From Desulfobacteraceae bacterium (GTDB lineage Bacteria > Desulfobacterota > Desulfobacteria > Desulfobacterales > JAJDOA01): DNA of 33,409 nucleotides. The position numbers were made by a program, and so were the translations under genes. This document shows positions 44-29,789 of this stretch, piece after piece. The notes beneath the pieces are model-generated. The model saw only the letters and a program-made list of their open reading frames with translations. It was not told the origin of the DNA and did not search any database. Position 1 is the stretch's first letter. Each line of letters opens with the position of its first letter. The stretch spans positions 1-33,409 of the forward strand of contig JAJDOA010000039.1 in NCBI GenBank assembly GCA_022340405.1, given 5' to 3'.

Positions 44-1396
44 TCAGGTTCCGGATGGATGAAACTGTTCTTCCTCCGTGGAGCCGGACATGGCGCCCAC
101 CGCCGTCTGCCCGGCGGTGATGGTGTTCATCACCCGGTCGAAATAACCGGCGCCGACGAATTTCTGATGGGTTATGGCCATGTAGCCGTCCTCCTTGCCG
201 TATTTGAACTCCTCCTGCTGGAATCGGGAATATGCCAGCATGCCCTCCTTGTGGTAGCCGCGCGCCAGATCGAACATGCCCAAGTTCAGCGAGTGAAACC
301 CGGCCAGGGTGACGAACTGGAATTTGTAGCCCATGGCCCCCAGCTCCCTCTGGAACTGCGCAATGGTCGCATCGTCGAGGTTGCCCTTCCAGTTGAAGGA
401 CGGCGAGCAGTTGTAGGCCAGCAGTTTTCCTGGAAACCGCTCGTGAATCCCTTCGGCGAAGCGCCGGGCCTGATCGATGTCCGGCCGCGAGGTCTCGCAC
501 CAGACCATGTCGGCATAGGGGGCGTAGGCCAGGCCGCGTGCGATGGCCGATTCCACACCGTTCTTCACGTAAAAGAAACCCTCGCTGCTCCGTTCCCGGT
601 TCAGGAGGAAAGGTCGGTCCCGCTCGTCGTGATCGCCGGTGATGAGCTTGGCCGCGTCCGCGTCGGTGCGGGCGACCAGGACGGTGGGAACGTCACAGAC
701 GTCCGCCGCCAGCCGGGCGGCCACCAGCTTGGAAACGGCCTCGGAGGTCGGCACCAGCACCTTGCCTCCCATGTGGCCGCACTTTTTGGCCGATGAGAGC
801 TGGTCTTCGAAATGAACGCCTGCGGCGCCCGCCTCGATCATCATTTTCATCAGCTCGAAGGCGTTGAGCGGGCCGCCGAAACCCGCTTCGGCATCGGCCA
901 CGATGGGCGCAAACCAGAACGGTCCGTTCTTTCTCCCGTCCAGCACCTGAATCTGGTCGGCCCGCCTCAGGGCATTGTTGATGCGCCGGACCACTGCGGG
1001 AACGCTGTTGGCGGGATAGAGGCTTTGATCCGGGTACATCTCGCCGGCCAGATTGGCATCGGCGGCCACCTGCCATCCACTCAGGTAGATGGCCAGGAGA
1101 CCGGCCTCCACCTGCTGCACGGCCTGGTTGCCGGTGAGGGCTCCCAAGGCGGCCACGTAATCCTCCTTGTGGAGCAGGTACCACAGCCGCTTGGCGCCCA
1201 CGGAGGCAAAGGTGTAGTCCACTTTCAGATTGCCCCGCAGTTTGAGCACGTCTTCTGGGCTGTAGGGTCGAACCACGCCCTTCCAGCGGGAATCATGGTC
1301 CCAGCGGGTCTGCAGATCTTCCCGTTCGTCTTCGACGACTTCGTGGCACACGAGTCGCTCACAGATTTCTGCAGCGGATTCGTCGACTGTTTTCAC
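44..1396 (-). CDS. aceA: Isocitrate lyase
   Basis: Cleaves isocitrate to glyoxylate and succinate, the first step of the cytoplasmic glyoxylate shunt. The 450-residue product has the isocitrate lyase signature KKCGHMGGK at residues 204-212, with the catalytic Cys206. It also has the Mg-binding stretch around DAEAGFGG (168-175) and the conserved SPSFNW segment near residue 330. The length is close to the E. coli enzyme (434 aa). The start codon is GTG at 1396-1394, preceded by AAGGAG seven bases upstream; the next in-frame ATG lies too far inside the conserved domain. It is the last gene of an aceK-aceB-aceA operon, 98 bp after aceB. That gap holds a 15-base palindrome but no obvious terminator, so co-transcription is likely. 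Confidence 0.97.
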
Positions 1397-1467
1397 GGCG
1401 TGTCTCCTTTTCTGTGGTCCGGATTGAAGACTCCCCGAAGCAAGGGAGGGGAATCATCCCGGCGTGG

Positions 1468-1482
1468 TTTCGATGATCGAAA
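1468..1482. promoter_or_regulatory. 15-base palindrome between aceB and aceA
   Basis: TTTCGAT-G-ATCGAAA is a perfect inverted repeat in the 98-bp gap between aceB and aceA. It is not followed by a T-run on either strand, so it does not look like a terminator. It could be an operator or an mRNA processing/stability hairpin. Function is inferred only from symmetry and position. Confidence 0.3.
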
Positions 1483-1494
1483 AGCCAAGGGCGG

Positions 1495-3111
1495 TCAGCC
1501 CAGCCGGTCGTATGCCTGCAGGGTGAGAAACTCCGCCAGTTCGTCATCGGTGACGAGGGCTTCAAACAGCTCCGCTGCCTCGATGTATCTCACCCGGGAG
1601 AACGCTTCCTTTCCGACGGCGGAGCGGATCTTTTTCATCTCGTCCCCGAGCACGGTGCGGAACAAATCGGCCGTAACCTCCCGACCGTCTTCCAGACGAG
1701 CCTCCGGGTGGTGCACCCATTGCCATACCTGGGTTCGGGAGATCTCTGCGGTGGCGGCATCCTCCATCAAATGGTACAGCGGCACGCAACCCAGCCCGCT
1801 GAGCCAGTTGGCAAGGTACTGGACACCGACGCTGACGTTGGTGCGCAGGCCGGACTCCGTGATGGCGCCGGACGGCAGCCGGAGCAGGTCCGCCGCCGAC
1901 ACCTCTACGTCCTGCCGCAGCCGGTGGATCTGGTTGGCGGACGGCATGACCTTGTCGAACTCCTCCCGGGCAAGGGCCACCAGCCCCGGATGGGCCACCC
2001 AGGTGCCGTCGTGTCCGTCGGTGGCTTCGCGGATCTTGTCCTCACGGACCTTTTGCAGAGCGGTCCGGTTGCGCTCCGGGTCGTCCTTGATGGGGATCTG
2101 GGCCGCCATCCCCCCGATGGCATGAGCCCCTCTTCGATGACAGGTCCGGATGGCCAGCTGCGAGTACGAGCGCATGCAGTGCCGGGTCATGGTGATCTGG
2201 GCGCGGTCCGGAAAGAGGTAGCCCGGTACGTTTTTGAAACGCTTGATGAAGCTGAAGATGTAATCCCACCGGCCGCAGTTCAGCCCGGCCATGTGATCCC
2301 GCAGCTCGTAGAGGATCTCGTCCATTTGAAAGGCCGCAGGAAGGGTTTCGATGAGCACGGTGGCCTTGATCGTTTTGCGGGGAACCCCCTGCGTTTCCTG
2401 CGCCATGAGGAAAACGTCGTTCCACAACCGGGCCTCCAGGCGGTCTTCCAGCTTGGGCAGGTAAAAATACGGGCCGGTGCCGGATTGCATCAACCGCTTT
2501 GCGTTGTGAAAAAAGTACAGGGCGAAGTCGAAAAGGCTGGCCGATACCGGCTCGCCGTCCACGCGGAGATGCTTTTCCACCAGGTGCCACCCGCGGGGAC
2601 GGACAATGAGAACCGCCGTTTCTTCGTCGAGGCGGTAGTGCTTGCCCTCCGGCGAAGTAAAGTCGATGGTGCGGTTCACGGCGTCCATCAAATTGGCTTG
2701 ACCTTCGATGGTCCCCTGCCAGGTGGGCGAGTGGGAGTCTTCGAAGTCGGCCATGAACGTCGATGCGCCCGAGTTCAGGGCGTTGATCACCATTTTCCGG
2801 TCCACCGGTCCGGTGATCTCCACCCGGCGGTCCTGCAAGTCTTCCGGCACGGGGGCGACGGTCCAGTCCCCTTGGCGGATGTCCCGGGTCTCTTCCAGGA
2901 AATCGGGCAGTTGACCGCCGTCGATATCGGCCTGCACCCGCTCTCTGCGCCGCAGCAGTTCCTTTCTTTCGGTTTCGAATGCACGGGCCAATCCGGCGAC
3001 AAAGTCCAGTGCATCGGGCGTGAGAACGCGGCTGCACAGCTGTTGAAAAGCAGGGGAGGCCTGCGGCTCCCGGACGATTTCGATGCCCGGAGCAACGGTA
3101 TCGGTTGTCAT
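1495..3111 (-). CDS. aceB: Malate synthase A
   Basis: Condenses glyoxylate with acetyl-CoA to malate, the second glyoxylate-shunt step. The 538-residue product matches the usual length of malate synthase A (about 530 aa), not the longer G isoform. The family segment GLNCGRWDYIFSFIKRF is present in the middle of the TIM barrel, followed by MTRHCMRSYSQLAIRTCHRRG and the GGMAAQIP motif. The conserved acidic segment FMADFEDSHSPTW lies near residue 120. The ATG at 3111 overlaps the aceK stop codon by four bases (ATGA), so the two genes are translationally coupled. The isocitrate lyase gene lies directly downstream. Confidence 0.97.
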   Translation of the reverse strand: MTTDTVAPGIEIVREPQASPAFQQLCSRVLTPDALDFVAGLARAFETERKELLRRRERVQADIDGGQLPDFLEETRDIRQGDWTVAPVPEDLQDRRVEITGPVDRKMVINALNSGASTFMADFEDSHSPTWQGTIEGQANLMDAVNRTIDFTSPEGKHYRLDEETAVLIVRPRGWHLVEKHLRVDGEPVSASLFDFALYFFHNAKRLMQSGTGPYFYLPKLEDRLEARLWNDVFLMAQETQGVPRKTIKATVLIETLPAAFQMDEILYELRDHMAGLNCGRWDYIFSFIKRFKNVPGYLFPDRAQITMTRHCMRSYSQLAIRTCHRRGAHAIGGMAAQIPIKDDPERNRTALQKVREDKIREATDGHDGTWVAHPGLVALAREEFDKVMPSANQIHRLRQDVEVSAADLLRLPSGAITESGLRTNVSVGVQYLANWLSGLGCVPLYHLMEDAATAEISRTQVWQWVHHPEARLEDGREVTADLFRTVLGDEMKKIRSAVGKEAFSRVRYIEAAELFEALVTDDELAEFLTLQAYDRLG

Positions 3112-4874
3112 AAGTCCCTCCTTTCGTTGAGGCGAAGGGTTTCATCCTGGGGCGGCCGCTCCGGAAAGAGCCTGTCGGCCTGCCGGTAGGGCGGGATTTC
3201 CCGGAGGGTGCCGGAGCGTACGTCTTGCTGGGCCTCGATCCAGAACGCCGGCCGAAACAGGTCGCCGTGCTGCTGCAGCAGCATCTCTTTCCGGTGGTCC
3301 TGCAGCCCCAGAAAAGGGGTGAATTCTTCGGGGAAAACGTCGTTGTCCTGCACGTGAAACCAGGGCTCGTCGGCCAACTCCTCGAAATCCGACCGGGCCT
3401 GGGGCAGGGAGCGAAATCGGCAGTCCGTCAGCGGGCACAGCTCGTCGTAGTCGTAGAACACCACCCGGCCGTGCCGGGTGACACCAAAATTTTTCAGCAA
3501 CAGATCGCCGGGAAAAATGTTGCTCAACGCCAGGTCGCGGATGGCCTCTCCGAAGTCGGCGACGGCAGCGGCGGCTTCCGCCTCGGCGGCGGTTTTCAGG
3601 TAGAGGTCCAGCGGTGTCACGCGCCGTTCCACGTAAGCGTGGCGGATCACCACGTCGTTGCCGGAGAGGCGGACGGTCCGCCCGGCCTCCTGCAGCAGGG
3701 TTTCCAGCAGAGGCCCGGCGAACCAGCAACGGTCGAAGGACAGGAATTCGAACTCCTGGGCCTCCACGAGCCGGCCGGCCCGGTGGTGTTTAAAAACGTA
3801 GGCGTACTGTTCGATCACCTGCCGGCGGGTAGTGGTTTTGGGACGCTGGAAACGGTCCCGGATCAGCTTGATCACCAAGTCGTGGTGCGGCATGGCGAAT
3901 ACGATCATCACCATGCCGGGAGCACCCGGCGCTTCGACGAACCGATCCTCCCCACAATGTTCGGCGTACGCCAGAAGGTCGCGGTACAGTTCGGTCTTTG
4001 CGTGCTTGAAGTGGCCGATGGACGAATAGAGCTCACCCACGAGCTTGTGCGGCAGCAGTGTGCGCAAAAAACCGACGGTTTCCCGTGGATGGGGGCAGAC
4101 CACGTGGAAGGCCGAGCGGGTGAAGGAAAACAGGATGCTCAAGCTGTCCTCGTCCAGCAGCACGGCTTCCAGGGCGATGCCATCCGGAGGGTGGCGAAAG
4201 GCCAGCACCATGGGAAGGGGCGGGGCCCCCTCCCGCACCAGCCGACCGACAAGGTAGGCACCTTGATTCCGGTAGAATAGGTTCTCCAGGACCTCGATCC
4301 GGCGAAGCCGGGCGCCGTTCTTTTCGAGCCGCTGCCGGATCCGATCCGCAATCCGTTCCAATGCCGGCCTGCGGATACCGCCCGTCAGCGGAAGTGCGGT
4401 GTCGGCCACCAGCGCCTGGAGGGCCTGCCGGATTCCGCTCCGGACAGGATAGGTGCGGAATTCGCCGGGATCCTCCCCCTCTTTTGTGTCGCGGCCGCCG
4501 CCCACAAACTCCACCGCCTCGTCCACACCGACGGTGACCAGGATCCTTCGGGTCATGGAGTTGAAAAAGGTTTCGTCCAACTCCCGGTTCGGTCGGCCGG
4601 TGGTCCACCCGGCATAGCGGGAGCGGGCCGATGCCCACACGTCCCTGTCGTCGACGACCTCGCCGAAACGATCCCGCAAAAGGTCCACTGTCCGGTTTAC
4701 GCTGTCGCCATAGAGTTCCAGGCGCTCAAGGGCATCGCTTCGCATGCCCTGCCAGTCCCGTCCCAGGAAACGGCCGCGGGCTCGGTGTGTGATCTCCGCG
4801 AATCGTTCGTGAAACGTGGAAACGGCGCTGAGGATGCATTCGGCGACCGCGTCCGCGGTTACAGCATCCGTCAT
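3108..4874 (-). CDS. aceK: Isocitrate dehydrogenase kinase/phosphatase
   Basis: Bifunctional enzyme that phosphorylates and dephosphorylates isocitrate dehydrogenase, shifting flux between the TCA cycle and the glyoxylate shunt. The 588-residue product aligns without gaps to the E. coli numbering over its core. The AceK-type ATP loop (APGAPGMVMIVFAMP) is at 315-329. Lys336 lies in VIKLIRDRF, Asp457 and Asn462 in GDLLLKNFG, and Asp475 in VVFYDYDE. The residue at position 371, Asp in E. coli, is Glu here. The start ATG has GGAGG ten bases upstream. It is the first gene of the operon, whereas in E. coli aceK is last. The clear catalytic residues make the call secure. Confidence 0.95.
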   Translation of the reverse strand: MTDAVTADAVAECILSAVSTFHERFAEITHRARGRFLGRDWQGMRSDALERLELYGDSVNRTVDLLRDRFGEVVDDRDVWASARSRYAGWTTGRPNRELDETFFNSMTRRILVTVGVDEAVEFVGGGRDTKEGEDPGEFRTYPVRSGIRQALQALVADTALPLTGGIRRPALERIADRIRQRLEKNGARLRRIEVLENLFYRNQGAYLVGRLVREGAPPLPMVLAFRHPPDGIALEAVLLDEDSLSILFSFTRSAFHVVCPHPRETVGFLRTLLPHKLVGELYSSIGHFKHAKTELYRDLLAYAEHCGEDRFVEAPGAPGMVMIVFAMPHHDLVIKLIRDRFQRPKTTTRRQVIEQYAYVFKHHRAGRLVEAQEFEFLSFDRCWFAGPLLETLLQEAGRTVRLSGNDVVIRHAYVERRVTPLDLYLKTAAEAEAAAAVADFGEAIRDLALSNIFPGDLLLKNFGVTRHGRVVFYDYDELCPLTDCRFRSLPQARSDFEELADEPWFHVQDNDVFPEEFTPFLGLQDHRKEMLLQQHGDLFRPAFWIEAQQDVRSGTLREIPPYRQADRLFPERPPQDETLRLNERRDL

Positions 4875-12518: not shown

Positions 12519-12534
12519 CGGTCACCGGTGACCG
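12519..12534. other. Perfect 16-bp palindrome at a convergent gene junction
   Basis: CGGTCACC-GGTGACCG is a perfect dyad spanning the stop codon of the CHASE2-SpoIIE gene, seven bases after the OmpA gene ends. It has no loop and no T-run, so a Rho-independent terminator is unlikely. It may be chance or a protein-binding site. Confidence 0.3.
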
Positions 12535-14690
12535 AGAAATCCCAGGGCCATGACGGTGATGTCGTCGGACTGAGGGGCTCCCGCCGCAAATCGCCGGATG
12601 TCCGCAAAGAGCCCGTTGCAGATCCCTGCCGCACTGGGATCCGTTCTCTGCGACGCCTCGAGCCAGCGCAGGACGCGCGCCTTTCCATAAAGCTCTCCGC
12701 CCGGGGCGTGCGCTTCGGTGATTCCGTCCGACAGCAAGACAAGGGTGTCTCCCGGCATGAGCGTGGTTTCCACCCCCGTGTACGGGTAGTCCTCCAGAAC
12801 GCACAGCGGCGGACCCGCCTCGATGTCGAGCGCCTCCGGCGAGACCCCCCCCCGGGGGCGCATCAGGAGCGGCTTCTCGTGCCCGGCGCAGCACAGCTGC
12901 AGCCGGCCGTCGTCGAGATTCACCACCCCAGCCAACGCCGTTACAAAAAGCATGGCGGGATTCTGACGGGCGATTTCCGCGTCGAGGATGCGGAACATCT
13001 CCCCCACATCCACGTCGCCTCTGAGTGCCGTGCTCTTGGCCAGGGTTTTGCAAAGAGCCATGAACAGTGCGGCGGCGACGCCCTTGCCGGCAACGTCCCC
13101 CACCAGGAAAAAAAAGCGGTGGTCGTCGATGGGAAAGGCATCGTACAGGTCGCCGCCCACCTCCTCCGCCGGTTCGATCCGGGCGAAAAAATCGATGCCG
13201 GGAATCGACCGATCAATGGCCTCGGGATCGGGCAGCATTCCCATCTGGATGTCGCGGGCCGCTGCGAGCTCGCCGGCCATTCGCATCCGTTCAAGCTTTT
13301 CGGCTTCCAAAGCAGCATCCAGTTCCCGCTGCCGCCTCCGGGCTTCTGCAAAACCGACCGCCAGCAACACCAAGAGCACAGGCAGAGCACCGGCCACGGG
13401 AAACGACGCATCCAACAATGTGCGGGTTTGTACGAACGCGGCGGCGCTGCCCGCGAGCAGGACAACAAGCGCGCCGACAAAAAAAGCGATGCCGGCCACA
13501 GGATGCATTCGCGGCAAAAAGACGATCAGAGCGACGCACAGAACAAAAAACACGCCAAGTTCGACTCGATGCGCCGGAGACGGTCGAACGAGACGGGATT
13601 GGGCGAGGATGTTCTCCACCACTTGGGCCTGAATCTCCACGCCGTCCATTCGCGCGGTCACCGGTGTGGCGACGACATCGATGGCACCGACCGCCGTCAC
13701 GCCGATAATGGCCACCTGCCGCTCGAAGGAGCCGGGGGCCATACGCCCCTCGAGCACGGAAACAGCGGAGACGCGCCGTTGGGCATAAGCGGGGGAGAAG
13801 TGGAGCCGGATGCGCCCGTCGCGGTCGGTGGGGATGAAGGATTCTCCGATCTGCACCCCCAGGACGCCGGCGGTGTCAGCCCGAACGCCGTACCAGGTGG
13901 CGCCCACCGCCGTTCGCAGGAGTTCCAAAGAGAGCGACGGTGCCAACTCGCCCCCAACGGCTAGAATCAGGGGCATGGTCCGTACGACGCCGTCCGCGTC
14001 ACGGGTGTCGTTGAGGTAGCCGCATCCGAAGGCTGCCTCCTCCAGAAGAGGAATGTTGGTCAGATGCCCTGCGTAGCCGGTGACAAAGTCTGCGGCGGGC
14101 TCGCCCACCTGCATCACCGCTGTCTGGCGCTCCCCGGCCGCCGGCCGACCTCCGCCTCCGATCAGGGCGGCTCGCGCCACCACGGACGGTGTCCGACGTA
14201 AGGTGCGGGCAAGGATTTCGTCATTGGAGGCAAGAGCCGCCAGCGCCGAACGAATGCGGGGGTCGACGTCCGTGCGCCGGGAGAGGATCACGTCCGGGGA
14301 CAAGCTGTCCGGTTCGGGCATAATGATGTCGTAGCCCACCGCCATGGCTCCGAGCCGGGTCACGGCGTCGGTGAGTTCGGCCAGCCGGTAGCGGGGCCAG
14401 GGCCAGCGGCCCAGCGCCTTCAGGCTGGCCTCGTCGATGTCCACGATCACCACGGGAAACTCTCGGACGGTACGGGGAAACAGACGCTGGAAGGTATCGA
14501 ACACGGCGTTTCGTACCGGGCGCCATCCATCGGCTCCACCGGCGGCAAAGGCAACGGCGATCAGCACCATCAGCACGGCAGCCGCCGGGCGCCCCCTGGC
14601 GCGGACGAACGCACCGTTTGCGGTATACGACCGCCCCTCGTGCCCGGGACTGGCGCCGTCGGCTTGTGCCGAATCGTCCACGGATCGCAT
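12522..14690 (-). CDS. CHASE2-domain SpoIIE-type serine/threonine phosphatase
   Basis: A 722-residue membrane sensor phosphatase. After a short cytoplasmic tail and a first membrane segment (AAAVLMVLIAVAFAAGG, 36-52), residues 55-360 form an extracytoplasmic CHASE2 sensor (VVIVDIDEASLKALGRWPWPR at 80-100). Three membrane segments follow at about 376-448, then a charged helix. The PP2C-like SpoIIE domain runs from 490 to 720 with metal ligands in GGDLYD (Asp514), GDVAGKG (Asp532), LLSDGITEA (Asp655) and SDDITV (Asp709/710). Such enzymes dephosphorylate STAS anti-anti-sigma proteins. A kinase-STAS fusion is encoded about 1.4 kb upstream on the same strand, a natural partner. The ATG follows GAAGGA closely. 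Confidence 0.92.
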   Translation of the reverse strand: MRSVDDSAQADGASPGHEGRSYTANGAFVRARGRPAAAVLMVLIAVAFAAGGADGWRPVRNAVFDTFQRLFPRTVREFPVVIVDIDEASLKALGRWPWPRYRLAELTDAVTRLGAMAVGYDIIMPEPDSLSPDVILSRRTDVDPRIRSALAALASNDEILARTLRRTPSVVARAALIGGGGRPAAGERQTAVMQVGEPAADFVTGYAGHLTNIPLLEEAAFGCGYLNDTRDADGVVRTMPLILAVGGELAPSLSLELLRTAVGATWYGVRADTAGVLGVQIGESFIPTDRDGRIRLHFSPAYAQRRVSAVSVLEGRMAPGSFERQVAIIGVTAVGAIDVVATPVTARMDGVEIQAQVVENILAQSRLVRPSPAHRVELGVFFVLCVALIVFLPRMHPVAGIAFFVGALVVLLAGSAAAFVQTRTLLDASFPVAGALPVLLVLLAVGFAEARRRQRELDAALEAEKLERMRMAGELAAARDIQMGMLPDPEAIDRSIPGIDFFARIEPAEEVGGDLYDAFPIDDHRFFFLVGDVAGKGVAAALFMALCKTLAKSTALRGDVDVGEMFRILDAEIARQNPAMLFVTALAGVVNLDDGRLQLCCAGHEKPLLMRPRGGVSPEALDIEAGPPLCVLEDYPYTGVETTLMPGDTLVLLSDGITEAHAPGGELYGKARVLRWLEASQRTDPSAAGICNGLFADIRRFAAGAPQSDDITVMALGFLGHR

Positions 14691-18105: not shown

Positions 18106-18343
18106 CTCAATCCGTTTTCTCCCGTGCCGGGGTACCGGGACCCGCGGCAGCATCCATTCGACACGGACCTGGACCGCATAACTCTGATTCAAAACCATAG
18201 GCGTCGAACCCCGATACCACAAGCGCAAGATCCGAACCCGCCGTATCGCCCAAATCGGCGGCCGACAACACCACCATCGCCCGCGCGGCCGTTCGTCAAG
18301 GCCCACCGGCCAGCGAGTGAGGGGAAAGGAGCGGGACGAGTCG

Positions 18344-19138
18344 ATGATCATCGTAGGCGAAAAAATCAACACCAGCCGGAAGGCCATCGCCGAGGCCGTG
18401 GAGAACCGGGACACCGAGTACATTCAGGAGGTGGCCAGGGCACAGGCGGATGCCGGGGCCGACTACATCGATGTCAACGCGGGCACCTTTTTGAAACGGG
18501 AGGCTGCGTTTCTGACGTGGCTGGTGGAGACGGTGCAGGCGGCGGTGGACCTGCCCCTGTGCCTGGACAGCCCTGATCCGAAGGCCCTGGAAAGCGCACT
18601 TGGATGCCACCGGGGCGAGGCCATGATCAACTCCATATCCCTGGAGGAGGACCGCTGGGAGGCGCTTCTTCCGGTGGTGAGCGCACGGCCCTGCAAAGTC
18701 ATCGCCCTGTGCATGGCCCGGACTTCCATGCCCACCACGGCCCAGGAGCGGATCGACGTGGCCGTCGAGCTCATCGAGGGCTTGCAGGCCGCTGGCGTCG
18801 CCCTGGAAAACATTTACGTGGACCCGCTGGTACAGCCGGTTTCCGTGGACGTGCGGATGGGCCCCGCCATCCTGGACGCCATCGCTGGCATCCGGGAACG
18901 CTTCCCCACAGTGAATGCCATCTGCGGTCTGTCCAACGTGTCCTACGGGCTGCCCTCGCGAAAGATGATCAATCGCCATTTTCTCGTACTGGCCATGCAG
19001 CGGGGATTGAACGCCGCCATTCTGGACCCCACGGACAGGGAAATGCGGGCATCCCTGCTGACCGCCCGCATGCTGCTGGGCAAGGATGAATTCTGCAGCG
19101 ATTACATCGAAGGATATCAGCAAGGACTGTACGCATAG
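18344..19138 (+). CDS. Methyltetrahydrofolate:corrinoid methyltransferase (pterin-binding, MtrH/AcsE-like)
   Basis: A 264-residue TIM-barrel methyltransferase that should transfer the methyl group from the methylated corrinoid protein to tetrahydrofolate. Pterin-binding family features are present: IIVGEKINTSRK at the start, DAGADYIDVNAGTF (about 40-53), LPLCLDSPDP, NSISLEE, and the closing barrel segment AICGLSNVSYGLPSRKMIN with the Asn typical of AcsE/MeTr enzymes. ATG 18344 starts directly at the first barrel strand and has AAAGGAG about twelve bases before it; a GTG at 18317 would add nine unconserved residues. It is the first gene of an operon with a corrinoid protein, two MttB-family enzymes and a corrinoid activator. 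Confidence 0.9.
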   Translation: MIIVGEKINTSRKAIAEAVENRDTEYIQEVARAQADAGADYIDVNAGTFLKREAAFLTWLVETVQAAVDLPLCLDSPDPKALESALGCHRGEAMINSISLEEDRWEALLPVVSARPCKVIALCMARTSMPTTAQERIDVAVELIEGLQAAGVALENIYVDPLVQPVSVDVRMGPAILDAIAGIRERFPTVNAICGLSNVSYGLPSRKMINRHFLVLAMQRGLNAAILDPTDREMRASLLTARMLLGKDEFCSDYIEGYQQGLYA

Positions 19139-19191
19139 CCGCCGTTGGAACAGGGCAACACCATCATCAAACCTAGTGAGGAGGAAGCGTC

Positions 19192-19827
19192 ATGGACCTG
19201 AGCGCGTTATCGGAGGCGGTGATTCAGGGGAACATCGAAAAGGCCAAGGAGCTGACCCAGCAGGCCGTCGATGCCGGTGAAGATCCACAGATTCTTCTGG
19301 ATCAGGGCCTGATCATGGCCATGGACACCGTGGGGGAAAATTTTGCCAAAGGTCTTTTGTTCGTGCCGCAGATGCTGCGCTCGGCCAAGACCATGCAGGA
19401 ATGCCTGGCCATCCTGCAGCCGCATTTCCAGGCCGGCAGCGTGACCAGCAAAGGCAAAATCGTACTGGGAACGGTCAAGGGCGACCTCCACGACATCGGC
19501 AAGAACCTGGTGGCGATGATGCTGGAGGGGGCCGGCTTCACCGTTGTGGACCTGGGCGTCGACGTCGCTCCGGAGGCTTTTGTCAAGGCCGTTTCCGAAG
19601 AGCATCCCAACATTGTCGGCATGTCCGCCCTGTTGTCCACCACGATGCCGTCCATGGCCGACACGGTCCGGGCGCTGTCGGAGGCCGGCCTGCGCGAAGC
19701 GGTGCAGATCATGATCGGCGGAGCCCCGGTAACGGCGCAGTACGCCGAGGAAATCGGCGCCGACCGCTATGCGCCGGACGCAGGATCGGCCGTAATCAAA
19801 GCCAAGAAACTGGTGGCGTCCGCATAG
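19192..19827 (+). CDS. Methyltransferase corrinoid protein (MttC/MtgC-like)
   Basis: The methyl-carrying cobalamin protein of the operon, 211 residues. Residues 1-88 form the helical cap domain (QILLDQGLIMAMDTVGENF and FVPQMLRSAKTM). Residues 89-211 are the B12-binding Rossmann-like domain with GTVKGDLHDIGKNLV, in which His100 of DxHxxG is the lower cobalt ligand, followed by VDLGVDVAPEAFV, GMSALLSTTM and IMIGGAPV. GGAGG precedes the ATG at a good distance. It accepts a methyl group from an MttB-type enzyme and gives it to the methyltransferase encoded 53 bp upstream. It is the only corrinoid protein for two MttB-family enzymes here. Confidence 0.95.
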   Translation: MDLSALSEAVIQGNIEKAKELTQQAVDAGEDPQILLDQGLIMAMDTVGENFAKGLLFVPQMLRSAKTMQECLAILQPHFQAGSVTSKGKIVLGTVKGDLHDIGKNLVAMMLEGAGFTVVDLGVDVAPEAFVKAVSEEHPNIVGMSALLSTTMPSMADTVRALSEAGLREAVQIMIGGAPVTAQYAEEIGADRYAPDAGSAVIKAKKLVASA

Positions 19828-19906
19828 ACAGGAGGCGGACCCGGTTCAAGCCGATGCCGGATCCGCAGTCACGGACCTTCCACCGAGCAAACACAAGGAG
19901 ATCGTC

Positions 19907-21361
19907 ATGCAGCGGTTACCGATTCCGACATTCCAACCCCGTCTCAAGGTTCTCGGCCGGGAACAGGCCCTGGCCATTCACACGGCCGCATTGGAGATCT
20001 TGGAGAAAACGGGGGTCAAAATGGAGCATGCGGAAGCCCGGGAAATGCTCGTCGATGCCGGAGCCCGCCCCTTCGGAGATGACTGGATCCGCATACCGGC
20101 TTGGCTGGCCGAGGAAGCACTGGCGACCGCTCCAAGGCAGATCGCGCTTTACGACCAGAACGGCAACAAGACCATGCCCCTGGTGGACGATCGGTTTTAC
20201 TACGGCACGGGCTCGGACACCACATTCACCCTCGACCTGGAGAGCGGGGAGCGCCGGCCCTGCGTGCTCAACGACACGGGTCGCTTCGCGCGTCTGGTGG
20301 ATGCGCTGGAAAATCTCTCCTTCGTCATGTCCATGAGCAACCCGCGCGACGTTGCCAAGATCGAATTCATTTACGTCTACGCCTTTGCAGAAATGCTGCG
20401 AAACACGGGAAAGCCCGTGGTGTTCATCGCCGACCGCCTCGAAGATATGACGGTCATCCACGAACTGGCGGCCATGGTGGCCGGCGGCGAGGAGCCGCTT
20501 CGCCGCAGACCCTTTCTGTTGAACTATTCCGAGGCCATCAGCCCACTGCGGTTTCCGGCGCAGGTGGTCGACAAGCTGATGTTCTGCGCGAAGAAGGAGA
20601 TCCCCATCTGCCTGCCGTCCGGCTCCAACGCGGGAGGGGGCGCGCCGGTGACGCTGGCCGGAGCGCTGGCAATGGGCATCGCCGAAAACCTGGTGGGGCT
20701 CATCGTGCACCAGCTGACCCAGAGGGGCGCGCCCTTTCTGTTCGGGCCGAACGTGAGTGTCCTGGATATGAAAAGTTCGGTGGTCTCCTATGGATGCCCC
20801 GAGTGGAGCCTGACCCAGGCGGCGCTGGCGGATATGCGCGACGAAATCTACGGCCTTCCCATCTGGGCTTTCGCCGGCGCCAGCGACGCGAAAACCGTGG
20901 ACGCTCAGGCCGGAGCAGAAGCCATGTTCTCCATTGTCACCGCCATGCTGGCGCGCTGCAACCTCATCCACGACGTGGGGTACCTGGAATACGGAAGCAC
21001 CTCTTCTCTGGAGATGGTCGCCATCGCCGACGAATTGATCGCCATGGCACGGCACTTCACCCGGGGGATCCCGGTCAACGAGGAAACACTGGCGCTGGAT
21101 GCGCTGGAACGGGTCAAAAATGCCGGGCCCAAGGGTATCTTCCTCACCGACGACCACACCTTCCATCACTTCGAAACGGCTCTCTTTCTGCCGCAGTTGA
21201 TGGATCGCAGCCGCTACGACGCTTGGGCGGCCGAAGGTGCCCGGGACCTGTACCGCCGCAGCAACAACCGGGTGCGCGACATTCTGGCATCCCATCGCCA
21301 GACGCAGCCGAAGGACGCCGCACTGCTCGAATCCATCGAGCAGCGGCTTGCCGAACTCTGA
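19907..21361 (+). CDS. MttB-superfamily methyltransferase, first copy (non-pyrrolysine)
   Basis: A 484-residue member of the trimethylamine methyltransferase superfamily, which moves a methyl group from an N-methyl compound to a corrinoid protein. Recognisable segments are EILEKTGVKMEHAEAREML, DDRFYYGTGSDTTFTLD, SNPRDVAKIEFIYVYAFAEM, NYSEAISPLRFP, LPSGSNAGGGAPVTLAGALA and DVGYLEYGSTSSLEMV. The frame is uninterrupted, with no in-frame TAG at a pyrrolysine position. It therefore belongs with the glycine-betaine-type (MtgB-like) enzymes rather than true MttB. The substrate is probably a quaternary amine, but which one cannot be told. ATG 19907 follows AAGGAG by about six bases. The gene lies 79 bp behind the corrinoid protein. 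Confidence 0.92.
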   Translation: MQRLPIPTFQPRLKVLGREQALAIHTAALEILEKTGVKMEHAEAREMLVDAGARPFGDDWIRIPAWLAEEALATAPRQIALYDQNGNKTMPLVDDRFYYGTGSDTTFTLDLESGERRPCVLNDTGRFARLVDALENLSFVMSMSNPRDVAKIEFIYVYAFAEMLRNTGKPVVFIADRLEDMTVIHELAAMVAGGEEPLRRRPFLLNYSEAISPLRFPAQVVDKLMFCAKKEIPICLPSGSNAGGGAPVTLAGALAMGIAENLVGLIVHQLTQRGAPFLFGPNVSVLDMKSSVVSYGCPEWSLTQAALADMRDEIYGLPIWAFAGASDAKTVDAQAGAEAMFSIVTAMLARCNLIHDVGYLEYGSTSSLEMVAIADELIAMARHFTRGIPVNEETLALDALERVKNAGPKGIFLTDDHTFHHFETALFLPQLMDRSRYDAWAAEGARDLYRRSNNRVRDILASHRQTQPKDAALLESIEQRLAEL

Positions 21362-21384
21362 AACCCGTGGAGTCTGCCGGTTTG

Positions 21385-22794
21385 ATGAAGCTTCTGAGCG
21401 AAGAACAAATCGAAACGGTGGATCGTACCGCTCGCCGGATCCTGGACGAAGTGGGGGTGAAGGTCCTCGACGAAAACGTCCGAGACCGTCTGGCCGCTGC
21501 GGGCGTCCCGGTGCAGGCAGACGAACGGGTCCGTTTGGAGGGGCCTTGGCTGGATGCCCGCCTGCAGGAGGCGCCGTGCCGGTTCACCCTGTTTTCCCGC
21601 GACGGGAAGAATGACATCGCGTTGGGAAGCGGCCGCTGCCACTTCGGCAACGGAGGCCGTGTGTTCCAGATCCTGGACATGGCCACCCAGGGGTTCCGGC
21701 CAACCCTGCTCCGGGACGTCGCCAACACCGCGGCTCTGGTGGACCGGCTCGAATTCATCCGGTTCTACATCATCGCCTGCCAGGCCCACGACCTGTCCCC
21801 CGCCCACTACCACCGCAACGACTTCTATCAAGCCTTCGCCCGAACCACCAAGCACGTCATGGGAGGGGTGGACAGCCTGGAGGGGGCCCGCCAGATGCAC
21901 GCTCTGGCCGCCCGCATCGCCGGTGGAGAAGACACGCTGCGTGAAAAGCCCTTCGTATCGGTGATCACAAACCCCATCAGCCCGCTGACCCTGGATGGGG
22001 AATCGCTGCGCATTCTGGAATTTTGCGGCCGCAAGGGTATACCCGCCACCTGCGCCCCGGCCCCCATTTCCGGAGCCACAGCCCCGGCAACCCTGGCCGG
22101 AACCCTGGCCCAGCTGCATGCCGAAGCCCTGGCCGGCGTCGCGCTGGCCCAGTTTCTGGTGCCCGGCACCCCGGTCCTCTACGGGGCGGTGGCCTCCACC
22201 ATGGACCTGCGCACCATGAACCTGGCCATCGGATCGGTGGAAACGGCCATGATCAACACCTGCAGCGTCGATCTGGCCCACCGGTACGGTCTTCCCATCT
22301 ACGCCTCGGCCGGAATCACCGATGCCATGCTGCCCGACATTCAGGCCGGCTTCGAGAAGGGGGTGTCGAATCTGATGCTCGGCATGGCCGGGGCGGACTT
22401 CATTCACCTTGCCGCCGGCATGCTGGATTCCGGCAACTCCATCGCCCTGGAGCAATACGTCATTGACAACGAGATCCTCGGCATGACCGAGCGGATTCTC
22501 CGGGGCATACGGGTCTCGGATGGCACCCTGGCCCTGGAGGCCATCGCCAGGGTCGGGCCGGGCGGCAATTATGTGACGGACGAGCACACGGTGGAAAACA
22601 TGTTCGAAGAATTTTTTTATCCCACCCTGGCTGTCCGGGAACAGTACGACCGCTGGACGGAGCTGGGATCGCCCACCCCGCAGACCAAGGCCCACGACTG
22701 GGTCGAGGATACCCTCCGACGGTCCGAACTCCGTCTGGACGCTGCGCTCGTGGAGGATCTTCGCAACCGTTTCCCGGAAATCGTGGATCCATGA
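21385..22794 (+). CDS. MttB-superfamily methyltransferase, second copy (non-pyrrolysine)
   Basis: A second, clearly diverged MttB-superfamily enzyme of 469 residues. It shows the same domain order: RRILDEVGVKVLDENVRDRL, SGRCHFGNGGRVFQILD, FIRFYIIACQAHDLSPAHYH, VITNPISPLTL, APAPISGATAPATLAGTLAQ and DEHTVENMFEEFFYP. It also lacks any in-frame TAG. ATG 21385 is 23 bp after the first copy; GGAG lies twelve bases upstream, and the open frame further upstream is antecedent noise overlapping the first enzyme. Its end overlaps the activator gene by four bases (ATGA). It may demethylate a different substrate, act on the product of the first enzyme, or pair with it. Confidence 0.92.
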   Translation: MKLLSEEQIETVDRTARRILDEVGVKVLDENVRDRLAAAGVPVQADERVRLEGPWLDARLQEAPCRFTLFSRDGKNDIALGSGRCHFGNGGRVFQILDMATQGFRPTLLRDVANTAALVDRLEFIRFYIIACQAHDLSPAHYHRNDFYQAFARTTKHVMGGVDSLEGARQMHALAARIAGGEDTLREKPFVSVITNPISPLTLDGESLRILEFCGRKGIPATCAPAPISGATAPATLAGTLAQLHAEALAGVALAQFLVPGTPVLYGAVASTMDLRTMNLAIGSVETAMINTCSVDLAHRYGLPIYASAGITDAMLPDIQAGFEKGVSNLMLGMAGADFIHLAAGMLDSGNSIALEQYVIDNEILGMTERILRGIRVSDGTLALEAIARVGPGGNYVTDEHTVENMFEEFFYPTLAVREQYDRWTELGSPTPQTKAHDWVEDTLRRSELRLDAALVEDLRNRFPEIVDP

Positions 22795-24725
22795 AAAAGA
22801 ACGCGAAGGGCCGCAAGAAGAAAAAGAAAAAACCGAATCAGGTACCGCCTTCGCCCAAGGGCCGCAAAATCCTGTGGTTGAACGTGCTGCCCGAGGACAT
22901 GTGGATCAAGGTCAAGCGGGGCGCCACGGTGTACGAGGCCCTGCAGAGCCGGGGGCTGGACGTGGGCGGGGAGTGCGGAGGCGTCGGCACCTGCGGTAAA
23001 TGCAAGGTGCGCATCATCACCGCCGTGGCGCCCCCCGGCGAAGAGGAACTCGAGCTGCTGACGGCGGAGGAACGCGAGCAGGGCATCCGCCTGGCCTGCC
23101 GGGTCCGGATCACCAAGACGATCGTGGTGCATACGGACATCGCACCGGGGCAAATGGAGCTGTTCCAGATCCTCAAAGACGGACATGTGCCGCATCCGCC
23201 GGCGGATCCGCTGATCGCAAAGCATGCCGTGCGGGTGACCCCTCCGAGTCTCCAGCACCCGGAATCGGATTTTTACCGACTGCGCGCCGCCCTGGGCCCG
23301 AGGTTCAAGGCTCTTCACGTCAGCCATCACTGCCTGTCCGAGCTCTACAGCAACCTGCGCCGTGCGGATTTCGAGGGAGAGGCCATCATACACCGCCGCT
23401 ATCTCGTCGATTTCCAACCGCCGAACAGCCCTTCCGGCCGGTACGGCATCGTATTCGACATCGGCACCACCACCCTGGTGGGCAAGCTCATCGACCTGGC
23501 TGACGGCAGCGAGGTGAGCGTCATCTCCCGGCTCAATTCCCAGGCCCGTTTCGGCAGCAACGTCATCAGCCGCATTCAGTACGTCCGGCAAAAAAGCCAA
23601 GGACGCAAGCGGATGCGAGAGCTCCTGCTGCGGGACCTGAACCTCATCGCCCGCCGCCTTCTGGAGGCCAACCGGTTGAATCCCGAGCATGTTTTCGTGG
23701 CCGTCGCCGCCGGCAACACCACCATGCAGCATTTCCTGTTGAACCTGGACCCCAGCGGTATCGCAGAGGCACCGTTCTCTCCGGTCATCACCGAGGGCGT
23801 GACCTACCCGGCACCGTCCGTCGGCCTGGAGCTGCATCCCAATGCCGCGCTCTACGTCATGCCCGCCAAATCCGGCTACATCGGCGGGGACCACATCTCC
23901 TTCATTCTGGCGAGCGGGGCGTTTCATGAGAGCGACGGTCTGATTCTCGGCCTCGATTTCGGCACCAACGGGGAAATGTTCCTGGGCAACCGCCGGCGGA
24001 TGCTGACCTGTTCCACAGCGGCGGGCCCCGCGCTGGAGGGGGCGCGGATCAGCAGGGGCATGATCGCACGTGCGGGAGCGGTGGAGGGGGTGCACGTTGG
24101 GGATACGGGGCTTCAATACGACGTCATCGGCAACGTCAAGCCCAAGGGCCTCTGCGGCAGCGGGCTGGTGGACATGGTGGCGGTCCTGCTGCACTACGGC
24201 GTGGTGGACGGCAGCGGTCTTCTGGGGCCGGAGGGGATCCGGGAGTCCAAAGAGCTGTTCCTCTCCCGGGTGGTTGCACAGGCGGACGGGGCGGTGCATG
24301 ATTTTCTCGTGGCAGGCACGGAGGAGAGTTTTTACGGAGACCGCATCCTGCTCACCCAGAAAGACGTCCGGGAGCTGCAGCTGGCCAAGGCGGCCGTCGC
24401 CGCAGGGGTCCAGCTGCTCCTGCAAGAGATGGGCGCCGGGATCGAAGACGTCGATCGCATCCTGCTGGCCGGAGCACTGGGAAATTACGTCAATCCTTAC
24501 AGCGCCATGCGCATCGGCCTTATTCCGATGTTCGACCCGTCCCGCATTGAATCCGTGGGCAACGCCGCCTCCTCCGGCGCGCAAATGGCGCTGGTCAACC
24601 GGCGGCACTGGCACGAGGCCGCCGAGATCGTCGATCACGTGGAGCACGTAGAGCTGTCCGTGCATCCGGATTTCTACGACCGCTTCGTCCGGGAAATGGA
24701 CTTCCCGGAAACGAATCTCTGGTAG
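22791..24725 (+). CDS. Corrinoid activation protein, [2Fe-2S]-ASKHA (RACE/RamA-like role)
   Basis: ATP-dependent reductive activator that returns oxidised cob(II)alamin of the corrinoid protein to the active cob(I) state. The 644-residue protein starts with a very basic tail (11 of the first 14 residues Lys or Arg). A plant-type [2Fe-2S] ferredoxin follows with Cys62, Cys68, Cys71 and Cys103 (GGECGGVGTCGKCKV). The C-terminal ASKHA ATPase region begins at about residue 220 with IVFDIGTTTLVGKLIDL, and has VAAGNTTMQHFLL, LGLDFGTNGEMFLG, CSTAAGPALEGARI and LLAGALGNYVNP. It is translationally coupled to the second MttB gene. It uses the iron-sulphur type of activator, not the RamA 4Fe-4S type. Confidence 0.93.
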   Translation: MKKNAKGRKKKKKKPNQVPPSPKGRKILWLNVLPEDMWIKVKRGATVYEALQSRGLDVGGECGGVGTCGKCKVRIITAVAPPGEEELELLTAEEREQGIRLACRVRITKTIVVHTDIAPGQMELFQILKDGHVPHPPADPLIAKHAVRVTPPSLQHPESDFYRLRAALGPRFKALHVSHHCLSELYSNLRRADFEGEAIIHRRYLVDFQPPNSPSGRYGIVFDIGTTTLVGKLIDLADGSEVSVISRLNSQARFGSNVISRIQYVRQKSQGRKRMRELLLRDLNLIARRLLEANRLNPEHVFVAVAAGNTTMQHFLLNLDPSGIAEAPFSPVITEGVTYPAPSVGLELHPNAALYVMPAKSGYIGGDHISFILASGAFHESDGLILGLDFGTNGEMFLGNRRRMLTCSTAAGPALEGARISRGMIARAGAVEGVHVGDTGLQYDVIGNVKPKGLCGSGLVDMVAVLLHYGVVDGSGLLGPEGIRESKELFLSRVVAQADGAVHDFLVAGTEESFYGDRILLTQKDVRELQLAKAAVAAGVQLLLQEMGAGIEDVDRILLAGALGNYVNPYSAMRIGLIPMFDPSRIESVGNAASSGAQMALVNRRHWHEAAEIVDHVEHVELSVHPDFYDRFVREMDFPETNLW

Positions 24726-28722: not shown

Positions 28723-29448
28723 TCAGGCGTCGTCCGCCTCGGCGAACTTGTAGCCGACCCCCCAGACCGTGAGGATGTAGCGCGGCCGGGCGGGGTCTTT
28801 TTCGATTTTGGACCGAAGTCGGTTGATGTGGGAATTCACGGTGTGTTCATAGCCGTCGTGGCCGTACCCCCAGACCCGGTCCAACAGCTGGGAGCGAGTG
28901 TATACGCGGCCGGGGTGCCGCGCGAACTGCACCAGCAGATCGAACTCCTTGGCGGTCAGCTCCAGCGGGCGCTCTCCTCGCAGAACCTTTCGCTTTCCCG
29001 TGTCAATCACCAGATCCGCCGCGTGGATGCGATCCGGGGTCTCAGTGCCTTTGGACGCCTCCAGCCCCTCGATGCGCCGGAACAGTGCCTTTACGCGGGC
29101 CAGCAGCTCCCGGATGCTGAACGGCTTGGTGAGATAGTCGTCGGCACCCAGCTCCAGGCCCAGCACCCGGTCCAATTCGGAGGACTTGGAAGTGAGCATC
29201 AGAATGGGAACGTACCGGTCACGACTGCGGAGGCGACGGCAGATTTCCAGGCCGTCCACACCGGGAAGGAGGATGTCGAGGATCACCAGGTCGAAGGTTT
29301 CGGATTCGGCCATGGCATAGCCGGTGACCCCGTCAAAAGCCAGTGTCACCTCAAAGGACAGATCCTGCAGATGCAGCTCCAGCAGCCGGGCCAGGTCCCG
29401 GTTGTCTTCGATGACCAGAATCCGTTTGGCCTCGGGCGTGTCCGTCAT
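28723..29448 (-). CDS. OmpR/PhoB-family response regulator
   Basis: A 241-residue transcription regulator. The receiver domain (8-125) has the acidic pair in VIEDNRD, the phospho-acceptor Asp58 in VILDILLPGVDG, Thr86 and Lys108 in DYLTKPF. The winged-helix DNA-binding domain (about 145-238) has LRGERPLELTAKEFDLL, YTRSQLLDRVWGYG and HINRLRSKIE. ATG 29448 is chosen over the TTG codon just before it at 29451. The ribosome site is weak, which suggests coupling to the gene ending 19 bp upstream. The histidine kinase follows directly. Confidence 0.95.
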   Translation of the reverse strand: MTDTPEAKRILVIEDNRDLARLLELHLQDLSFEVTLAFDGVTGYAMAESETFDLVILDILLPGVDGLEICRRLRSRDRYVPILMLTSKSSELDRVLGLELGADDYLTKPFSIRELLARVKALFRRIEGLEASKGTETPDRIHAADLVIDTGKRKVLRGERPLELTAKEFDLLVQFARHPGRVYTRSQLLDRVWGYGHDGYEHTVNSHINRLRSKIEKDPARPRYILTVWGVGYKFAEADDA

Positions 29449-29467
29449 CAATAGGGGCGCTTTCCGC

Positions 29468-29767
29468 TCATGGGGAGTCTTCCGTTCCCAGATAGGTGCC
29501 CGCCGATTTCAGGGCCTCTTCCATCTCCGTCTCCGTGACGACGGAGGGATCGTAGGTGACCGTGTTGATCTCCCGGAAACCGCGGAAGCCGTTGCGAACC
29601 TCGACAACTCCGTCGAGCCCTTCCAGGGCTCGCTTGCCAACGTCGTATCAGCGGACGAAGAACACGGCCTCGGCCGATAGCGCTTCAGCTCCGGCCGGCA
29701 GAGCCGGAACCGCCGGTACAACCCAGAGCATACCCATGGTCAACAGCAGCAGGGCGTATCGTTTCAT
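29468..29767 (-). CDS. Candidate selenoprotein: secreted HMA-like domain protein with in-frame UGA at codon 40
   Basis: Read through one TGA (29650-29648), this frame encodes 99 residues. ATG 29767 follows AAAAAGGAGG at an ideal distance. Residues 1-28 are a signal peptide (YALLLLTMGMLWVVPAVPALP). The mature part reads AEAVFFVR-U-YDVGKRALEGLDGVVEVR, then FREINTVTYDP and TEMEEALKSAGTY, the strand-helix-strand-strand-helix order of heavy-metal-associated (HMA) domains. The UGA falls at the end of strand 1, where HMA proteins carry a metal-binding Cys. The coding pattern continues without change after it. A perfect stem-loop with spacing typical of a bacterial SECIS follows. There is no Cys in the product. 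It lies 19 bp before the response regulator. A nonsense mutation is the alternative. Confidence 0.75.
29614..29632 (-). promoter_or_regulatory. SECIS-like stem-loop after the UGA codon
   Basis: On the minus strand CGAGCCC-TGGAA-GGGCTCG forms a perfect 7-bp stem with a 5-base loop having G at its second and third positions. The loop begins 22 nt after the UGA at 29650-29648, within the 16-37 nt range usual for bacterial SECIS elements. An outer CGT/ACG pairing across a 7-nt bulge can extend it. This is what SelB would need to insert selenocysteine. Confidence 0.65.
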
Positions 29768-29789
29768 GAGGGCACCTCCTTTTTCCGGG

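Follow-up and report, generated by a model that had tools for sequence, protein, structure and literature searches.

Does the in-frame TGA at codon 40 of a small exported gene end translation or encode selenocysteine (Sec), and, if it encodes Sec, what might a protein with one Sec and no Cys do in the cell envelope? The gene lies on contig JAJDOA010000039.1 of a Desulfobacteraceae draft genome (GCA_022340405.1; 4.0 Mb, 375 contigs, 93.7% complete). We refer to the whole stretch of 33,409 nucleotides that was analysed as the window. A first-pass annotation, made from sequence alone, had proposed an unannotated, HMA-like selenoprotein with a lone Sec and no Cys, heading a two-component operon. 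The coordinates it gave were correct, with the minus strand left unstated, and the ribosome-binding site, the exported N-terminus, the TGA at codon 40 and the 59 in-frame codons that follow it all held (Table 1). On comparative evidence, as we discuss below, the exported lone-Sec protein is almost certainly a selenoprotein.

The open reading frame starts with the ATG at 29767-29765, runs to 29471 and is closed by a second TGA at 29470-29468. The read-through product is MKRYALLLLTMGMLWVVPAVPALPAGAEALSAEAVFFVR-U-YDVGKRALEGLDGVVEVRNGFRGFREINTVTYDPSVVTETEMEEALKSAGTYLGTEDSP. Its N-terminus (residues ~1-27) is of the exported type, a hydrophobic stretch with AxA at its end, and is followed by a mature domain resembling HMA domains and the MsrA core (residues ~33-95), with the Sec in the motif VxUYDVG. 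A scan for sigma-70 promoters and terminators found no signal exceeding that of shuffled sequences.

Table 1. Features of the selenoprotein locus in the window.
Feature	Position	Strand	Basis
Selenoprotein gene (very probable), 99 codons + TGA stop	29468..29767	-	Sequence, homologue alignment, AlphaFold2
Ribosome-binding site AGGAGGT	29774..29780	-	Sequence; precedes the selenoprotein ATG
In-frame TGA, codon 40, very probably read as Sec	29648..29650	-	Same codon TGA in 49/49 homologues
Bacterial SECIS-type stem-loop CGAGCCC-UGGAA-GGGCUCG, loop 29621-29625	29614..29632	-	Fold, codon invariance, compensatory changes
OmpR-type response regulator	28723..29451	-	Pfam PF00072 + PF00486
Sensor histidine kinase (HAMP, HisKA, HATPase), 496 aa	27221..28711	-	Pfam domains

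Elsewhere in the window, a glyoxylate shunt set (44-4874, minus strand) combines ORFs resembling isocitrate lyase and malate synthase with an upstream AceK, in a genome from a mostly anaerobic order. A CHASE2 sensor fused to a SpoIIE-type phosphatase (12522-14690, minus strand) lies near FecR-like and OmpA-like ORFs. A corrinoid methyltransferase cluster (18317-24725, plus strand) encodes a pterin-binding methyltransferase, a B12 protein, two MttB-family proteins and a RACo-type activator; the MttB-family frames are open without TAG, and so are not of the pyrrolysine type.

Decoding of the internal TGA

Fifty-eight related genomes were searched first and yielded seven homologues (45-58% identity), all of which carry a single TGA, located at the Sec column. 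Profile searching of 389 class genomes, together with a scan of GTDB species genomes, extended the family to 49 distinct full-length sequences, the window protein included. The homologues align across the TGA, and the Sec codon is TGA in 49/49. The mature domain has exactly one Sec and no Cys in every member, and the fourth position of what would be a UxxU or CxxC motif is V or A, never Cys or Sec. Both the lone Sec and, for the mature part, the absence of Cys that had been claimed are thus supported. The invariant Gly at +13 is encoded by GGC (22), GGT (15), GGA (6) and GGG (6); such free third bases at conserved residues after the TGA indicate selection on the protein downstream of it. Most carriers belong to Desulfobacterota, with SAR324 and Nitrospirota also represented in the GTDB scan. 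Seemingly decayed or frame-shifted copies also occur (L087, 1882-2067, and matches in G384, G352 and G327).

The first-pass annotation had expected homologues with Cys in place of Sec, and this expectation failed. Only TGA forms were found; no Cys form was detected in 84,980 GTDB species by peptide patterns, nor in the 389 class genomes. The GTDB pattern had Cys at the Sec position, so that Cys forms would have shown up. As far as searched, the family is Sec-only, a case where Sec has not been swapped for Cys.

The hairpin after the TGA provides support at the RNA level. A perfect stem with a GG-containing loop 22 nt past the TGA had been proposed and held: the stem has 7 pairs, or 8 counting the loop-closing U-A, the loop is GGA closed by that pair (UGGAA), and the TGA-to-loop spacing is 22-23 nt. 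The 51 nt from the TGA onward have a minimum free energy (MFE) of -20.2 kcal/mol (z = -2.8), and 2 of 200 shuffles were equally good. The published bSECIS model calls for a loop of 3-9 nt, a stem of 4-16 bp, G in the first two loop positions, a UGA-loop spacing of 16-37 nt and MFE <= -7.5 (PMC13188914), and the window hairpin satisfies all of these. An Rfam search for a SECIS element gave no significant match. Codons inside the hairpin are frozen across the family, with Leu as CTG in 49/49, Ala as GCC in 43/46 and Gly as GGG in 42/48. Among 47 distinct sequences, 91.5% of stem cells are paired and 4 of the 7 stem pairs have changed on both sides; in one homologue (L083) the stem is still perfect although the amino acids shift from EG to VE. 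The exceptions are four homologues with one inner mismatch each (L007, L070, L080 and L086). In 500 shuffles, none of five measures rose as high as in the real alignment; when the stem partner is slid, pairing falls to 33-62% and covariation is also far lower. The frozen codons and the compensatory changes together indicate RNA-level selection on the hairpin.

Selenocysteine machinery is encoded in the same genome. SelA (615 bits) and SelB (375 bits) both score over their cut-offs, and a second TGA gene encodes an exported Sec-MsrA with the motif GUFWG (C249:31047; L138 ~1048, plus strand). That Sec-MsrA is probably a lipoprotein, and many class genomes contain similar MsrA genes with a TGA. 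The tRNA-Sec gene, selC, was not found in the draft with an Rfam model, ARAGORN on candidate loci or a pattern search. The draft has no 16S rRNA match either, which makes it plausible that RNA genes are absent from the assembly. Co-occurrence with selA, considered as a test for the family, was rejected as uninformative, selA being present in 363/389 class genomes.

Two rival explanations deny a Sec here. In the first, the TGA is a real stop, and the gene a truncated leader peptide, a pseudogene or the result of a sequencing error. A standard gene caller would indeed cut it to a 39-codon stub (~40 residues), and no tRNA-Sec was identified in the draft. Against this stand the TGA in 49/49 homologues, the strong protein conservation beyond it and the covarying SECIS, and we consider the explanation very unlikely. 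In the second, the genetic code is changed genome-wide, with TGA encoding Trp or some other residue. No evidence in support was found; TGA is the final stop of the window gene and of 14/49 homologues, and SelA, SelB and the SECIS fit Sec, so that a code change is all but excluded. It is thus almost certain that UGA codon 40 is decoded as Sec via the downstream hairpin; with similar confidence, the product would then be exported and its mature domain of ~70 residues would contain a single Sec and lack Cys.

Fold and database relatives

The HMA-like character claimed for the protein needed partial refinement: the fold is HMA by prediction, and the sequence is about equally MsrA-like. AlphaFold2, run on the 49-row alignment with Sec modelled as Cys, gave a beta-alpha-beta-beta-alpha-beta ferredoxin-like fold with pLDDT 90.8. 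The closest structures are HMA domains (MerP 1osd, TM 0.78), followed by MsrA (TM 0.70). Profile matches in the PDB likewise rank HMA domains (CopA, ATP7B, MerP and CopZ) ahead of MsrA. Profile-profile probabilities are 96.6% for HMA and 95.8% for MsrA, with shuffled-column controls at ~1% or less, and the MsrA profile alignment sets the Sec on the MsrA catalytic Cys. By these model predictions, the sequence resembles HMA metal-binding domains and the MsrA core to about the same degree, HMA being slightly ahead.

Family models matched only weakly. The HMA model PF00403 does not match the window protein and matches 7/49 members at E <= 1 (best 0.008); the MsrA model PF01625 gives the window protein 12.1 bits vs a gathering threshold of 23.7, with weak matches in 14/49 members (best E 0.002). 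In NCBIfam, the nearest models, NF041383 and NF041115, match 49/49 members, with the window protein far below both cut-offs, and the CopZ and MerP models match the family weakly. Full-length NF041383 was considered as the true family and rejected; there are no full-length matches in the sample, and the matched region is MsrA-like. A plasmid search gave no match, and phage families gave only a weak one, its function unknown.

The domain is not covered by any family in Pfam, NCBIfam (2026) or the 2026 catalogue. That catalogue, which spans 119 prokaryotic selenoprotein families, includes UxxU metal-binding, VPGUxxT and MsrA proteins; the lone-Sec domain is absent from it by name or motif. The literature searched contains no paper with the motif YDVGKA, and a mention in the 2007 Olavius symbiont paper is not excluded. 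The family thus appears new to current databases, while its kind, a bacterial selenoprotein on a ferredoxin-like fold, is already known. We attribute its absence to the fact that standard searches look for Cys versions: searches for bacterial selenoproteins mostly depend on Cys homologues, and homology-based finders need Cys/TGA pairs. The deep-Sep authors note that filtering may remove selenoproteins that have no Cys homologue (PMC12013277). A lone-Sec family common in Desulfobacterota marks a blind spot in selenoproteome catalogues.

The two sets of relatives give rise to two rivals to the functional reading that we prefer. In one, the protein is a periplasmic selenolate metallochaperone or scavenger of the HMA type, acting on soft metals such as Cu(I), Ag(I) or Hg(II). 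HMA domains are its top PDB profile, fold and profile-profile matches, and there are weak NCBIfam matches to UxxU_metal_bind, CopZ and MerP. Being slightly the better match, HMA domains leave metal binding not excluded. Against this, HMA metal sites are CxxC, and the second such position is never Cys or Sec in the family. In the other rival, a miniature MsrA, the selenol alone would reduce oxidised methionine (Met-O) or another sulfoxide in the envelope. The position of the Sec on the MsrA catalytic Cys supports it, as does the Sec-MsrA encoded in the same genome. An invariant Glu lies six residues ahead of the YDP Tyr, spaced as in the E...YDP of MsrA; this Glu was rejected as an MsrA hallmark, because local HMA domains show the same spacing and it is therefore not diagnostic. 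Against this rival, the substrate loop and C-terminal residues of MsrA are missing.

Gene neighbourhood and proposed function

The claim that the gene heads a two-component operon held. The ATG of the response regulator (29448) lies ~20 nt past the selenoprotein stop, and the kinase comes next; upstream, the selenoprotein gene adjoins a GNAT/carbon-nitrogen hydrolase fusion. Regulators 64-71% identical and kinases 52-61% identical to those of the window adjoin the selenoprotein gene in seven other loci.

Among 53 flanked loci of the family, MsrA, MsrB or an MsrP-like protein of PF00174 is encoded within 8 kb in 30 (MsrA 24, MsrB 24, MsrP-like 9), nearly always on the same strand as the selenoprotein and ~1.3 kb away or closer. 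Several MsrAB-selenoprotein pairs overlap by 4 nt, and the remainder are mostly 10-80 nt apart. By a rough estimate that was not computed, and assuming about three msrA per 5-Mb genome, chance adjacency to msrA would be well below 1%. A two-component system is found near the selenoprotein in 26/53 loci, with kinases of two types: a 360-aa kinase accompanies MsrAB, and a 493-499-aa kinase is orthologous to that of the window (52-61% identity). The latter lies upstream of the selenoprotein in other genomes and downstream in the window, and some loci that have it also contain MsrP-like or spondin-domain genes. The presence of two kinase types and both gene orders suggests that the association reflects function and not inherited order. 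The spondin-domain gene (NF038123; L054 7168-7842, L083 2076-2744, also L068 and L071) lies between kinase and selenoprotein wherever both are seen. Neither an Msr gene nor a matching kinase was found in 19/53 loci, several of them on short contigs.

No Msr gene adjoins the selenoprotein in the window itself; its tie to Msr genes rests on the orthology of its two-component system to those of Msr-linked loci. The MsrP-like protein (~218 aa) scores 39.5 vs an MsrP cut-off of 207 and 67.4 for the sulfite dehydrogenase SorA, also far below cut-off. Since it is nearer SorA than MsrP, with all scores sub-cut-off, its substrate is uncertain. The first-pass annotation had suggested that the regulator and kinase sense a metal or redox state; the neighbours elsewhere point to envelope methionine-sulfoxide repair, not to metal handling alone.

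These neighbourhoods bear on both rivals. A metallochaperone could share its regulation with Msr genes, given that methionines are oxidised under metal stress; in E. coli, CusSR induces MsrPQ along with a copper pump and the chaperone CusF (PMC9302797). Against this, Msr genes recur as neighbours, whereas the recurring clusters contain no metal transporter or P-type ATPase. The metallochaperone remains possible. For the miniature MsrA, a full MsrA is often encoded next door, which would make its activity redundant; we regard it as unlikely, and as a special case of the redox-module reading.

That reading, which makes the protein a Sec-only redox module in envelope methionine-sulfoxide repair, is the one we favour by a modest margin (probability ~0.6); the redox role is inferred, without biochemistry. 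Two of its parts, inferred from the conserved operons, seem likely: the selenoprotein would take part in an envelope response to oxidised methionine, with the adjacent two-component system as inducer, and in many relatives it would be made together with an exported MsrAB or MsrP-like molybdoenzyme. The chemistry is more tentative. A lone Sec without a resolving Cys suggests one of two routes: the selenol attacks a sulfoxide directly and an external thiol serves as resolver, or it reduces oxidised MsrA/B in the manner of a monothiol. The selenol, predicted at the N-terminus of helix 1, the site of the MsrA catalytic Cys, may attack the sulfoxide or the oxidised MsrA/B active site, although we would not bet on this step. 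That it would act as a monothiol-type reductant, regenerated by another envelope thiol, is inferred and falls likewise short of an even chance. A bolder version of the redox-module reading, in which the protein is the dedicated, Sec-only selenol component of envelope Met-O repair, with a single chalcogen and its own two-component control, could as easily be wrong as right. It may take two forms, a pared-down MsrA or the reductant still missing for exported MsrAB/MsrP, and the balanced odds apply to the two jointly. What is new is the conserved linkage of a lone-Sec family to Msr genes and to two different two-component systems. The operons give a specific link between selenium and the repair of oxidised methionine in the cell envelope.

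Comparison with known systems

Several known proteins share part of this design. The UxxU metal-binding (seleno)protein NF041115 (PMC13188914, Table 1) resembles the family in its HMA-type fold and in having Sec at the first metal-ligand position. It has UxxU, whereas the family described here has one U only and V or A in place of the second; the window protein scores at best 27.6 bits vs a cut-off of 95. HMA/MerP/CopZ proteins (PF00403) are alike in fold and size, and in export as in MerP, and differ in that the selenoprotein has no CxxC metal site. The VPGUxxT type 2 model NF041383 spans 287 positions and describes a protein of two parts, one of them a thioredoxin-like Sec domain. Its region 142-203 matches 49/49 members and also matches MsrA; the window protein aligns with only the C-terminal part of the profile (34.5 bits vs a cut-off of 275), and the family lacks the thioredoxin part.

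MsrA and Sec-MsrA (PF01625, TIGR00401) share with the family the ferredoxin-like core, Sec at the catalytic Cys and the gene neighbourhood, and the GV..V..G[YF].G and YDP motifs are similar. The MsrA domain has ~150 residues and the selenoprotein ~70, without the GCFW (G[CU]FW) motif, the substrate loop, the resolving Cys and the C-terminal part of MsrA. A precedent for a Sec protein serving Msr is a Sec-glutaredoxin that reduces Sec-MsrA, according to the title of ref. 85 in PMC13188914. E. coli MsrPQ with HprSR or CusSR is likewise a two-component-controlled system of envelope methionine-sulfoxide repair; it has no selenoprotein, whereas the family described here has an MsrP-like gene (PF00174) adjoining in 9 loci.
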